In this document: positions 15,520 to 55,740 of the stretch, piece after piece
How positions within the stretch are numbered: position 1 is the stretch's first letter
How the letters are laid out: each line of letters starts with the position of its first letter
NCBI GenBank assembly: GCA_003020925.1
Contig: PXRT01000005.1
Span: forward strand, 68,052 to 132,051
DNA length: 64,000 nucleotides
Source: Halobacteriales archaeon QS_6_64_34
GTDB lineage: Archaea > Halobacteriota > Halobacteria > Halobacteriales > Haloarculaceae
Reading direction: 5' to 3'
The notes under the pieces: model-generated
Told to the model about the DNA's origin: nothing
Database searches by the model: none
What the model saw: only the letters and a program-made list of their open reading frames with translations
Made by a program: the position numbers and the translations under genes

Positions 15520-15807
15520 CTAGGCATCCGCTTCGGTATCGACGTACTGGTTCTCCCAGTCGCGTCGGGCGTCAAGTTCCCGACGGCCGCGACGGGTCAG
15601 CGTATAGAAGTTGGTCCGACGGTCACGCTGGCCCTTCTCGATGAGTCCCTTCTCGACCAGTGTATCGAGGTTGGGGTAGAGTCGGCCGTGGTGAATCTCT
15701 TTCTCGTAGTAGGCCTCCAGGTCCTCCTTGATAGCGAGCCCGTGTGGCTCGTCGTGGCCGGCAATCACGTAGAGGAGGTCCCGCTGAAACCCGGTCAGGT
15801 CGTGCAT
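15520..15807 (-). CDS. PadR-family transcriptional regulator
   Basis: 95 aa from ATG 15807 (MHDLTGFQRDLLYVIAGHDEPHG). It is a winged-helix PadR protein: helix 1 LTGFQRDLLYVIAG, recognition region GLAIKEDLEAYYEKEIHHGRLYPNLDTLVEKGLIEKGQ, and wing RTNFYTLTRRGRREL. The TATA element TTTAAA lies ~41 nt upstream of this ATG and overlaps the ORF-track start (15843), so the later start is right. Effector and targets are unknown; autoregulation and control of the adjacent MgtC/SapB gene are possible. Confidence 0.88.
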   Translation of the reverse strand: MHDLTGFQRDLLYVIAGHDEPHGLAIKEDLEAYYEKEIHHGRLYPNLDTLVEKGLIEKGQRDRRTNFYTLTRRGRRELDARRDWENQYVDTEADA

Positions 15808-15842
15808 CGTCTGTCCCTCTGCATGTATCAGGCTCTGAACCA

Positions 15843-15848
15843 TTTAAA
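15843..15848 (-). promoter_or_regulatory. TATA box of the PadR gene
   Basis: The sequence CATGTTTAAATGG on the minus strand holds TTTAAA about 41 nt before the PadR ATG, predicting a leader of roughly 15 nt. The element is palindromic and so could also serve the plus strand. Confidence 0.5.
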
Positions 15849-16008: not shown

Positions 16009-16284
16009 ATGCCAGAAAAAACCCTGTTCGAGAGTGAGCAGCTCATGGGTCGTGACGCCGTCGCCGACTACCTCCGCACGTTCGCGGATTCCCTGGAGTC
16101 CGGGTCCGACGTGACGTTGCAGGCGGGCGACCAGTCGGTGACGATGAGCCCACCGGGCGAGGTGGAGTTCGAGGTCAAAGCCGAGCGCGAAGGGCCGACC
16201 GACGGGGACGGCGAACTCAGTATCGAAGTCGAACTGGAGTGGCCCAAAAACGCGAGCGGGGACGGCGGCCTCTCCATAGAGTAG
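16009..16284 (+). CDS. Amphi-Trp domain protein
   Basis: 91 aa. The sequence contains the amphi-Trp layout: a helical N-terminus (LMGRDAVADYLRTFADSLESGSDVTLQAGDQSVTMSPPGEVEFEVKAE) and a paired C-terminal strand ending ELSIEVELEWPKN. The family is small, haloarchaea-rich and of unknown function; the Trp-tipped amphipathic strand suggests membrane or lipid association. It stands alone between PadR and the structured non-coding block. Confidence 0.82.
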   Translation: MPEKTLFESEQLMGRDAVADYLRTFADSLESGSDVTLQAGDQSVTMSPPGEVEFEVKAEREGPTDGDGELSIEVELEWPKNASGDGGLSIE

Positions 16285-16332: not shown

Positions 16333-16452
16333 GGTAGCGTCGCTACCTGAGTTATTTCAGCGAAGTAAGTGGAAAGCGGCCGCCGAAAATGCGGCCGCTT
16401 GCCGCCCTGAATTGGTCCCCGCTGACGCTTCGGCCCTCCAAGCGAAGCGTCA
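16333..16452 (-). ncRNA. Candidate structured small RNA
   Basis: Transcribed leftwards from a TATA element centred at about 16479, the expected start (about 26 nt downstream) falls at 16453, exactly where a perfect 10-bp stem begins (TGACGCTTCG/CGAAGCGTCA). A second perfect 10-bp stem (AAGCGGCCGC/GCGGCCGCTT) and a 6-bp stem (GGTAGC/GCTACC) follow within 120 nt. There is no frame with haloarchaeal coding character. It does not show the SRP, RNase P or tRNA signatures I know. The strand is inferred from the promoter geometry; a plus-strand transcript cannot be excluded. Confidence 0.45.
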
Positions 16453-16475
16453 ACTGAGGTGAGGTGAGTGAGAGA

Positions 16476-16483
16476 CTTAAAAG
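16476..16483 (-). promoter_or_regulatory. TATA-like element for the candidate small RNA
   Basis: Minus-strand CTTTTAAG, about 26 nt before the first base of the 16452-16423 stem. Read on the other strand it is CTTAAAAG, so direction is not settled. Confidence 0.4.
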
Positions 16484-16635
16484 TACCGGCCGTATGGCGA
16501 TACGGTAGTTCACTGATATTCCAGTTGTCCGTAACCCATAGCCGAATAAAGCCGACTGGTATACAGTTGCGCGTCGCCAGCAGCGTCGTGCTGACAGTCT
16601 GGCGCTCATCATGAGCGGGGCAGGCCGTTTTCGGC

Positions 16636-16923
16636 CTACCGGTTCTCGCGTTGTTCGACCTTGTTCAGCTCGATGAGCAGCCGGAACGTCGCCTTCACGA
16701 GGTTGGCGTCGACGTCGAACCGCTCTGCGTTCTCGCCGGCGCGGTCCATGACAGCCTGTTCCTGGGACTCGTCGGTCGTCGGCAGCCCCTGTTCTTTCTT
16801 GACCTGTGCGATAGTGTCGGCGACGTAGGTCCGCTGAGCGATTTTCTCGACGATTTCGCGGTCGATGGTGCGTATCTCCTCGCGCAGTTCCTCCAGTGAC
16901 ATCTCCTCCGGGTTCGAACTCAT
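16636..16923 (-). CDS. Chorismate mutase, AroQ type
   Basis: 95 aa, all-helical. It has the AroQ pattern LEELREEIRTIDREIVEKIAQRTYVADTIAQVKKEQGLPTTDESQEQAVMDRAGENA: the first R of R-x-x-ID, the second R (QR), the K of KK and the E/Q residues of the active site. It converts chorismate to prephenate, the branch point to Phe and Tyr. Its ATG overlaps the stop of the preceding shikimate kinase gene by 4 bp, so the two are translationally coupled steps of the same aromatic pathway. Confidence 0.92.
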   Translation of the reverse strand: MSSNPEEMSLEELREEIRTIDREIVEKIAQRTYVADTIAQVKKEQGLPTTDESQEQAVMDRAGENAERFDVDANLVKATFRLLIELNKVEQRENR

Positions 16924-44177: not shown

Positions 44178-44201
44178 AGGGTTCCTCCTTGATAGGAAAA
44201 G

Positions 44202-44286
44202 TGCAGGGAGCAGGATTTGAACCTGCGGACCCCTACGGGACAGCGCCCTGAACGCTGCGCCGTTGGCCAAACTTGGCTATCCCTGC
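44202..44286 (-). tRNA. tRNA-Leu (anticodon CAG)
   Basis: Type II tRNA of 85 nt. Acceptor GCAGGGA pairs with TCCCTGC; the T arm GCAGG-TTCAAAT-CCTGC is perfect; the anticodon stem CAGCG-TTCAGGG-CGCTG places CAG in the centre of the loop; the long variable arm (TCCCGTAGGGGTC) is the leucine/serine class. No intron seen. CCA is not encoded. Confidence 0.95.
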
Positions 44287-46603: not shown

Positions 46604-46621
46604 ATCTTGTAGTGGTGTGAG

Positions 46622-46706
46622 CGTCGTGGCTGGGATTCGAACCCAGGAGGCTGTACGCCACAGAGTTAGCAACCCTGCGCCTTGGGCCAGGCTTGGCTAC
46701 CACGAC
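46622..46706 (-). tRNA. tRNA-Ser (anticodon GCT)
   Basis: Type II tRNA of 85 nt. Acceptor GTCGTGG/CCACGAC, anticodon stem CAGGG-TTGCTAA-CTCTG with GCT in the loop centre (Ser AGC/AGU codons), long variable arm, T arm CTGGG-TTCGAAT-CCCAG. No CCA, no intron seen. Confidence 0.95.
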
Positions 46707-54270: not shown

Positions 54271-55740
54271 CATCCTCCCCGCGCTGAAGCGCGAGGATTC
54301 CCACGGAACCGCACCGCTGGGTTGGGATATTGTGGTTCACGATACGATCTATTCTTGTGGGCGTACTCTGCCAGTGGATTTGTCGAACAGACGTACCGAT
54401 GGCTGTGCCAAGCAGCCGTTACTCCTATCCTCTACAGGATTCGGAGTTACCGTCACTCGCATATTCTCTGCCGCGTTCAGGTCGCCATTAGCGACCAGTC
54501 CACACTCATCACAGACGTACAGGCCACGTTCCACACGGTTTGCGTCGGCTTCTGTGCCACATTCACAGCACGTTTTCGACGTTTTCAATTCCGCTTCATC
54601 AACACGTTCCACGTCGATTCCACGGTCTTCAGCCTTGTACTCGATGTGGTTCAGAAGGGTTTTAAACGCCCAGTTATGCAGCCGTTTGTTGCCGTGTCGC
54701 CCCCAGTCTTGATCGTCATGGATCTGCTTGGGATGGCCGATTGCTATCGTTCCAACATTATGGGCAGCACACTGTTCGACAATATCGTTCGACAAGGCGT
54801 GTAGGAAGTGGTCTTGTCGCCGTGATTTTTTCTGTCGTGCCCACTGTGCGTGTTGGCTTGGGCCGTTTTCACCCGCTGTGTCGTATTCTTCTTGGCGGAA
54901 GTAGTGGGCGTCTTCTTTCAGGGCGTTGCCCGGATACAGCAGTGTCTCGTCACCGATAGAAACAGCCGCCGTATTGCAGATTCCAAGGTCAACACCTGCG
55001 GTGTTCTCGCCTGGCGTTTCGGGGGTCTCAACCCGCATTTTACAGACGAAATGCAGTTCCCACTTGTCACCAGTCCAGACAGCACGCACAGTCTGGACGC
55101 TCTCAACATCCGCGAGCGTCTGGTCGGCGTCTGTTTGGAGCGTGTATTCACACAGCATGTAGTCAGCGGCGTACCGTGAGGCCTTCATATTCGTCCCTTT
55201 CGAGAGCCGAACACGGTTGTACTGAGTGTCGAGTTTGAAGCCTTGATTTTTCCACGTCACCGTTGACCGTGGATGTTGTTCGCCGTGTTTGCGGTAGCCG
55301 GGCGGGTTCGCGTCTGGATCGTCTTGTTCGTACCACGACACAAATGCTTCCCCGAGTTCCTGAAGAACTCGTTGGCTGGATTGTGAGTGCAAATCCGCGT
55401 AGCGGTCGTGGCTTTTGAGATACGAACACAGTTCGTCGGCGTCTGGAATATGGTCGATAGCGTCCCAGACACGTGAAATCGTCCATCGTCCGACGTTCCA
55501 CAGTTTCGAGGCAGCAAAGCCATGCGAATCGAGGCCATCACACACTTGCGAGTGGTTGGTGAGACTCGCTTTGAGTGTCCGAGTGACGACCTGATTCGAC
55601 ATATGTAAGCATAGTATTTTCTCTTACATAATGGTTGCGGATAGCTGTTGTCTGTGGAATATCCAGTCGTGGCTCAGAGGGGAGATTGATACCCAGTTGT
55701 CGGCTTCATCCCCGCGCTAAAGCACGAGTCTTTCGCCTCG
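54271..55740. mobile_element. IS200/IS605-group element carrying only tnpB
   Basis: One tnpB gene (54349-55602) without tnpA. Both ends carry a similar subterminal motif in the same orientation: right end CATCCTCCCCGCGCTGAAGCGCGAGG (54271-54296) and left end CTTCATCCCCGCGCTAAAGCACGAGTC (55704-55730). Each can fold into a hairpin. Non-autonomous unless a TnpA acts in trans. Exact ends cannot be fixed without an empty site. Confidence 0.75.
54349..55602 (-). CDS. tnpB: TnpB-type RNA-guided nuclease (IS1341 family)
   Basis: 417 aa. N-terminal WED/REC-like part, then RuvC pieces: RuvC-I AGVDLGICNTAAVSIGDE, RuvC-III VANGDLNAAENM, and a zinc ribbon CCECGTEADANRVERGLYVCDEC between them. The RuvC-II motif, normally x-x-x-E-D/N-L, reads TIAIGHPKQIHDD here, lacking the Glu at the expected position (see finding). 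The transcript would read through the right end at 54348-54271, where an omega-RNA scaffold is expected. Starts just downstream of an AT-rich upstream region with ATTATGTAAGAG. Confidence 0.9.
   Translation of the reverse strand: MSNQVVTRTLKASLTNHSQVCDGLDSHGFAASKLWNVGRWTISRVWDAIDHIPDADELCSYLKSHDRYADLHSQSSQRVLQELGEAFVSWYEQDDPDANPPGYRKHGEQHPRSTVTWKNQGFKLDTQYNRVRLSKGTNMKASRYAADYMLCEYTLQTDADQTLADVESVQTVRAVWTGDKWELHFVCKMRVETPETPGENTAGVDLGICNTAAVSIGDETLLYPGNALKEDAHYFRQEEYDTAGENGPSQHAQWARQKKSRRQDHFLHALSNDIVEQCAAHNVGTIAIGHPKQIHDDQDWGRHGNKRLHNWAFKTLLNHIEYKAEDRGIDVERVDEAELKTSKTCCECGTEADANRVERGLYVCDECGLVANGDLNAAENMRVTVTPNPVEDRSNGCLAQPSVRLFDKSTGRVRPQE

Follow-up and report, generated by a model that had tools for sequence, protein, structure and literature searches.

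A 351-bp gap separates an amphi-Trp domain gene from a chorismate mutase gene in the 64,000-nucleotide stretch of haloarchaeal DNA analyzed here (the window), and it raises the question of what such a gap encodes, on which strand, and with what partner its product might act. An initial annotation had noted four perfect stems in it and proposed either a small RNA or a structured 3' element of the neighboring aromatic operon. We addressed this question by comparing the locus with its counterparts in other haloarchaea.

A structured element lies between two convergent genes

The gap that houses the RNA element is bordered by the amphi-Trp domain gene on the plus strand (16009..16284, Pfam PF20068) and by the chorismate mutase gene on the minus strand (16636-16923), which sits beside a GHMP kinase gene. 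All four perfect stems were confirmed at their positions: two outer stems of 6 bp (16333-16338/16342-16347 and 16490-16495/16500-16505) and two inner stems of 10 bp (16374-16383/16391-16400 and 16423-16432/16443-16452). The fold of the 173-nt region that contains them beat 200 of 200 dinucleotide shuffles on both strands, with z-scores of −3.5 on the plus strand and −4.4 on the minus strand. The two 10-bp stems are kept in relatives and form the arms of two hairpins, H2 and H1, respectively. The outer 6-bp stems were found only in this genome; being private to it and missing in relatives, they are not retained as parts of the RNA. The RNA feature is real and far above chance, and its strand and limits are not those that had been implied: it reads on the minus strand, from a promoter at 16488-16475.

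The RNA is near-universal in Halobacteriales

With the intergenic region as a DNA query, 37 of 41 genomes, including the window's own, gave matches. A 98-nt core was then searched against 295 Halobacteriales genomes and matched 286 of them, among which are 254 of the 256 of good quality. Across most families, a core of approximately 57 nt is 95–100% identical. The nine genomes that are missing represent every sampled member of three Halobacteriales families, in which a covariance model gave one chance-level match and otherwise none. A phylum-wide draw of 394 genomes yielded 81 matches, all of them in Halobacteriales, and none in the approximately 313 others; the covariance model, whose E-values are rough but leave a wide gap between matches and non-matches, found no homologues outside the core haloarchaea. 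This distribution suggests that the RNA originated in the core haloarchaea.

The gene carries its own promoter

Upstream of the hairpins on the minus strand is the sequence CGGTACTTTTAAGT (16475..16488), which contains a BRE-like CGGTA followed by the TATA element TTTAAGT. Aligned over 101 distinct copies, the upstream profile reads C-39 G-38. T A-35 ... T-31 T-30 A-29 A-28 G-27 T-26, with an information content of up to 1.84 bits and a fixed spacing to the hairpin. A promoter of its own, CGGTA-TTTAAGT at −39 to −26, held at a constant distance throughout these copies, is as expected of a stand-alone gene. The predicted start (~16453-16454) falls at the foot of H1, and the predicted 3' end lies at ~16371-16365, delimiting a non-coding RNA gene at 16371..16454 on the minus strand; in 86 distinct copies the predicted transcript measures approximately 80–95 nt. 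Expression of this minus-strand RNA, like its start and end, is predicted from the sequence. We propose that the TATA/BRE promoter would start a transcript of 80–95 nt at the base of the invariant H1, and that a variable hairpin with a pyrimidine tract would end it, serving as intrinsic terminator and 3' protector. Taken together, we estimate at about 85% the probability that the locus is a stand-alone non-coding RNA gene on the minus strand, belonging to a core-haloarchaeal family.

An invariant 5' domain precedes a covarying 3' hairpin

The 5' hairpin H1 (16423..16452, minus strand) has the arms TGACGCTTCG and CGAAGCGTCA around the loop CTTGGAGGGC. It is followed by an invariant single-stranded tract, GCGGGGACC (16414..16422, minus strand; in 42 non-redundant copies, GCGGGGAC is invariant and the last C is present in at least 90%), and then by a linker, AATTCAGGGCGGC (16401..16413, minus strand), which is mostly conserved and varies in some Haloferacaceae paralogues. 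Among 83 distinct copies, the 3' arm of H1 is identical in 82 and the 5' arm in 73. The loop consists of two to four pyrimidines, the last one a U, followed by GGAGGGC (the UGGAGGGC loop). These counts describe a set of copies gathered with a sequence pattern that contains most of H1 (GGAGGGC included) and GCGGGGAC, and the exposed GGAGG of the UGGAGGGC loop is present in every copy collected in this way. Copies found by BLAST only, without the pattern, carry the same 5' block, including the UGGAGGGC loop.

Compensatory changes in both 10-bp stems had been put forward as the check on the RNA. Since the pairs of H1 are almost invariant, covariation gives no test of the 16423-16452 stem, which is neither supported nor refuted by it; the predicted pairing of H1 rests on folding thermodynamics and the inverted repeat instead. 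Among the few changes in H1, the 5' arm of one copy reads CGGCGCTTCG, in which a G-U replaces an A-U pair. We also considered a pseudoknot between the loop GGAGGGC and the tail GCUUUCC, which is feasible in many copies, and rejected it because divergent families do not keep the tail.

The 3' hairpin H2 (16374..16400, minus strand) has the arms AAGCGGCCGC and GCGGCCGCTT and is followed by a TCC pyrimidine tract, with which it probably forms the transcription terminator. Its sequence differs nearly everywhere and its pairing is retained, reflecting massive compensatory change. Native duplexes of the H2 arms averaged −28.0 kcal/mol, versus −15.4 kcal/mol when arms were cross-paired between copies, and only 97 of 6480 cross-pairs (1.5%) were as stable as the native hairpin; the arms were taken from the best hairpin of each copy, which introduces a slight bias, though probably not one that could account for a difference of this size. 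Hairpins of the 3' domain had a mean z-score of −4.9 against shuffles (93 copies), and RNAalifold analysis of 12 copies revealed five pairs that changed on both sides, all within H2. Homologues in other haloarchaea therefore bear out the 16374-16400 stem as a conserved structure with compensatory changes.

Haloferacaceae often have two to four copies, in which the 5' domain is kept and the rest varies, and in Haloferax the second copy is found in the vicinity of TrkA, Lrp-type, and ferredoxin genes; the numbers of copies given are minima, and the assignment to Haloferacaceae and Haloferax derives from a plasmid match, a DHFR comparison (approximate query), and named Haloferax matches. Given that the paralogues keep H1 and GCGGGGACC as the linker and H2 diverge, the block formed by H1 and GCGGGGACC is probably the functional part. 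A Haloferax pattern search of the genome collection matched about a dozen other Haloferax species and did not return H. volcanii. TBP adjacency, considered as a link between a copy and HVO_1727, was not found. Searches of phages and of viral contigs gave no match, and the plasmid matches comprised two records only, Halorubrum lacusprofundi pHLAC01 and one from Haloarcula. The pHLAC01 copy (~2501-2538) retains most of H1 and GCGGGGACC, but its linker is entirely different and its 3' hairpin is weak; it is possibly a decaying or repurposed paralogue.

Candidate partners of the invariant domain

We propose that the RNA would act in trans, with H1, its UGGAGGGC loop, and GCGGGGACC contacting what may be one universal partner, and with the 3' half of the RNA serving as terminator only. 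We expect this partner most likely to be either a protein or the small subunit of the ribosome. The RNA might be a lineage-defining housekeeping RNP of Haloarchaea with a function outside any known RNA class, for example, a global regulator bound to the 30S subunit or to the polymerase, which arose after the deep non-matching families split and is under constraint like that on SRP or RNase P RNA; we hold this reading tentatively, as possible rather than probable. A protein-bound RNP is a plausible mechanism, if well short of an even chance.

As for the small subunit, the GGAGG of the loop could pair with the anti-Shine-Dalgarno (anti-SD) CCUCC at the 3' end of 16S rRNA, in which case the RNA would mimic a Shine-Dalgarno sequence and either dock on 30S subunits or titrate them. 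The 16S rRNA of two relatives terminates in GGATCACCTCC, and the exposed GGAGG is invariant among the pattern-selected copies. Complementarity to rRNA was not above chance: duplexes of segments of the invariant domain with 16S and 23S rRNA were no better than those of shuffled segments, GGAGG:CCUCC aside. The 5-nt GGAGG match alone is weak evidence, a function of the loop only would not need both arms of the 10-bp H1 to be invariant, and we regard anti-SD pairing or 30S docking as quite unlikely to be the mechanism.

The same gene might, alternatively, encode a trans-acting sRNA that pairs through its invariant 5' domain with several mRNAs. Its conserved, seed-like 5' part with a variable intrinsic terminator resembles bacterial seed-region sRNAs, and both GGAGGGC and GCGGGGACC are exposed; however, the RNA is near-universal, whereas 22 of 27 tested H. 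volcanii sRNA genes are confined to that species (PMC3956466), and eight genomes hold no conserved 11-nt complement besides the gene itself. For GCGGGGACCAA or CUUGGAGGGCC, 11-nt complements had no second site common to all eight genomes, and several genomes have none, which makes a single long-pairing mRNA target unlikely. On balance, such an sRNA is a doubtful reading, and seed pairing with several mRNAs is equally doubtful as the mechanism. The remaining options are a protein partner, anti-SD pairing, or short-seed regulation of several mRNAs. As a separate observation, the 11-mer GGCCCTCCAAG, the complement of the loop, is rare outside the RNA gene in eight relatives (five sites, against approximately 60 for the reversed word, the one control used), and codon bias may explain this rarity.

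Alternatives to an RNA gene

An operator-like DNA element, i.e., a protein-bound inverted repeat in double-stranded DNA whose transcription is incidental, would agree with H1 as a perfect and scarcely variable 10-bp inverted repeat. It is highly improbable, however, given that the promoter lies at a fixed distance on one side only, that a covarying, terminator-like hairpin lies on the side opposite the promoter, and that the single-stranded GCGGGGACC tract is just as invariant.

The neighborhood was compared over 146 loci, a set that includes redundant copies for some genomes. The steadiest neighbor is a PadR-family regulator gene (15520..15843 on the minus strand of the window, Pfam PF03551), which follows the RNA on its own strand at 93 loci; upstream of the RNA, 76 loci have a small DUF gene with the ending YKRALGWVLEEEH. 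At many loci an amphi-Trp gene lies between the RNA and PadR, downstream and on the opposite strand, a frequent neighbor that is convergent with the RNA and separate from it. A chorismate mutase gene lies upstream at merely three loci, all from the window's own genus, so the linkage to aromatic genes is local and recent, and a constant association with the chorismate mutase-shikimate kinase pair, as an element of the aromatic operon would have it, is refuted. Were the site instead a 3' structure of that operon, or a terminator that the operon and the convergent amphi-Trp gene share in both directions, its position between convergent genes and the terminator-like H2 and pyrimidines would be accounted for, but the RNA has its own conserved promoter, its paralogues adjoin unrelated genes (e.g., Lrp-type and ferredoxin), and an invariant 39-nt 5' block is unneeded for termination, leaving this explanation a very slight chance.

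A leaderless small-peptide gene, starting at the ATG, GTG, or TTG found at the predicted start in most copies and in keeping with the mostly leaderless mRNAs of haloarchaea (PMC4983044), is practically negligible, since the H1 loop measures 10 nt in 56 copies but 11 nt in the other 27, a 1-nt change in a third of the copies that destroys any conserved reading frame, and since approximately 10 copies have no NTG, synonymous variation at wobble positions is absent, and the open reading frame across the RNA in the window has no Pfam match.

We then compared the non-coding RNA with known classes. None of the Rfam 15 covariance models (including SRP, RNase P, and tRNA) matched it at the gathering threshold, and at an E-value of 10 only two chance-level matches appeared, both outside the RNA; the proposal of a small non-coding RNA without an Rfam family was thus upheld. 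ARAGORN detected no tRNA at the locus. On reading the consensus by eye, we found neither box C (RUGAUGA) nor box D (CUGA) on the sense strand, and, among H/ACA features, no K-turn/K-loop and no 3' ACA; the 10-bp stem is uninterrupted and the end is CUUUCC. Elsewhere in the window, 54276-54452 (minus strand) matches the Rfam family RF02656 sot0042, a family of sense-overlapping transcripts, with 116 bits; sot-type RNAs in other haloarchaea are linked to transposase genes. ARAGORN also predicted a tRNA-Leu (cag) at 44201-44286 (minus strand), for which the Rfam tRNA model was silent at the gathering threshold, unlike the tRNA-Ser at 46621-46706, which that model lists.

Discussion

Our search of open papers for the sequence of this RNA returned none. 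Many uncharacterized haloarchaeal sRNAs, conserved ones among them, have been surveyed (PMC3956466, PMC10927574, PMC12482152), and a halite metatranscriptome contained 22 conserved haloarchaeal ncRNAs with no function given (PMC7002113). One of these surveyed sRNAs, for example, from H. volcanii, may be the RNA described here. Compared by description only, H225.2R/HVO_1727s2 (96 nt), hts10, htsf359, HVO_2908s, and H3.2 of H. volcanii are likewise small intergenic RNAs conserved in haloarchaea; the length of H225.2R fits, and it is conserved in 19 other genomes, and Hbt. salinarum carries close homologues of HVO_2908s and of H3.2 (PMC3956466, PMC10927574). As the surveys may already include this RNA, its novelty is that of an unnamed, uncharacterized family outside Rfam rather than of a never-seen transcript. 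The RNA is short, mostly single-copy per species, duplicated in the tractable Haloferax, and missing from Rfam, and it can therefore be annotated at once.

Like the archaeal H/ACA and C/D guide RNAs, this RNA is a small stem-loop RNA predicted to be stable, but it differs from them in having no C/D boxes, K-turn, 3' ACA, or Rfam match. Trans-acting sRNAs of the Qrr type combine a 5' seed domain with an intrinsic terminator. The haloarchaeal RNA is similar in its invariant 5' part and variable terminator hairpin with a pyrimidine tract, and it is set apart by its much wider invariance, its archaeal promoter, and the fact that no target was found. The rancRNA_s194 of H. volcanii is an intergenic, ribosome-binding ncRNA of approximately 97 nt (PMC6104027). 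It attaches to the 50S subunit and, unlike the near-universal RNA described here, is reported from H. volcanii only among the haloarchaea (PMC3956466). Haloarchaeal sRNAs have been described as evolving fast and as mostly species-specific (PMC3956466). This RNA shows the reverse, with a 39-nt block that is near-invariant throughout practically all Haloarchaea, which implies an essential or universal partner.
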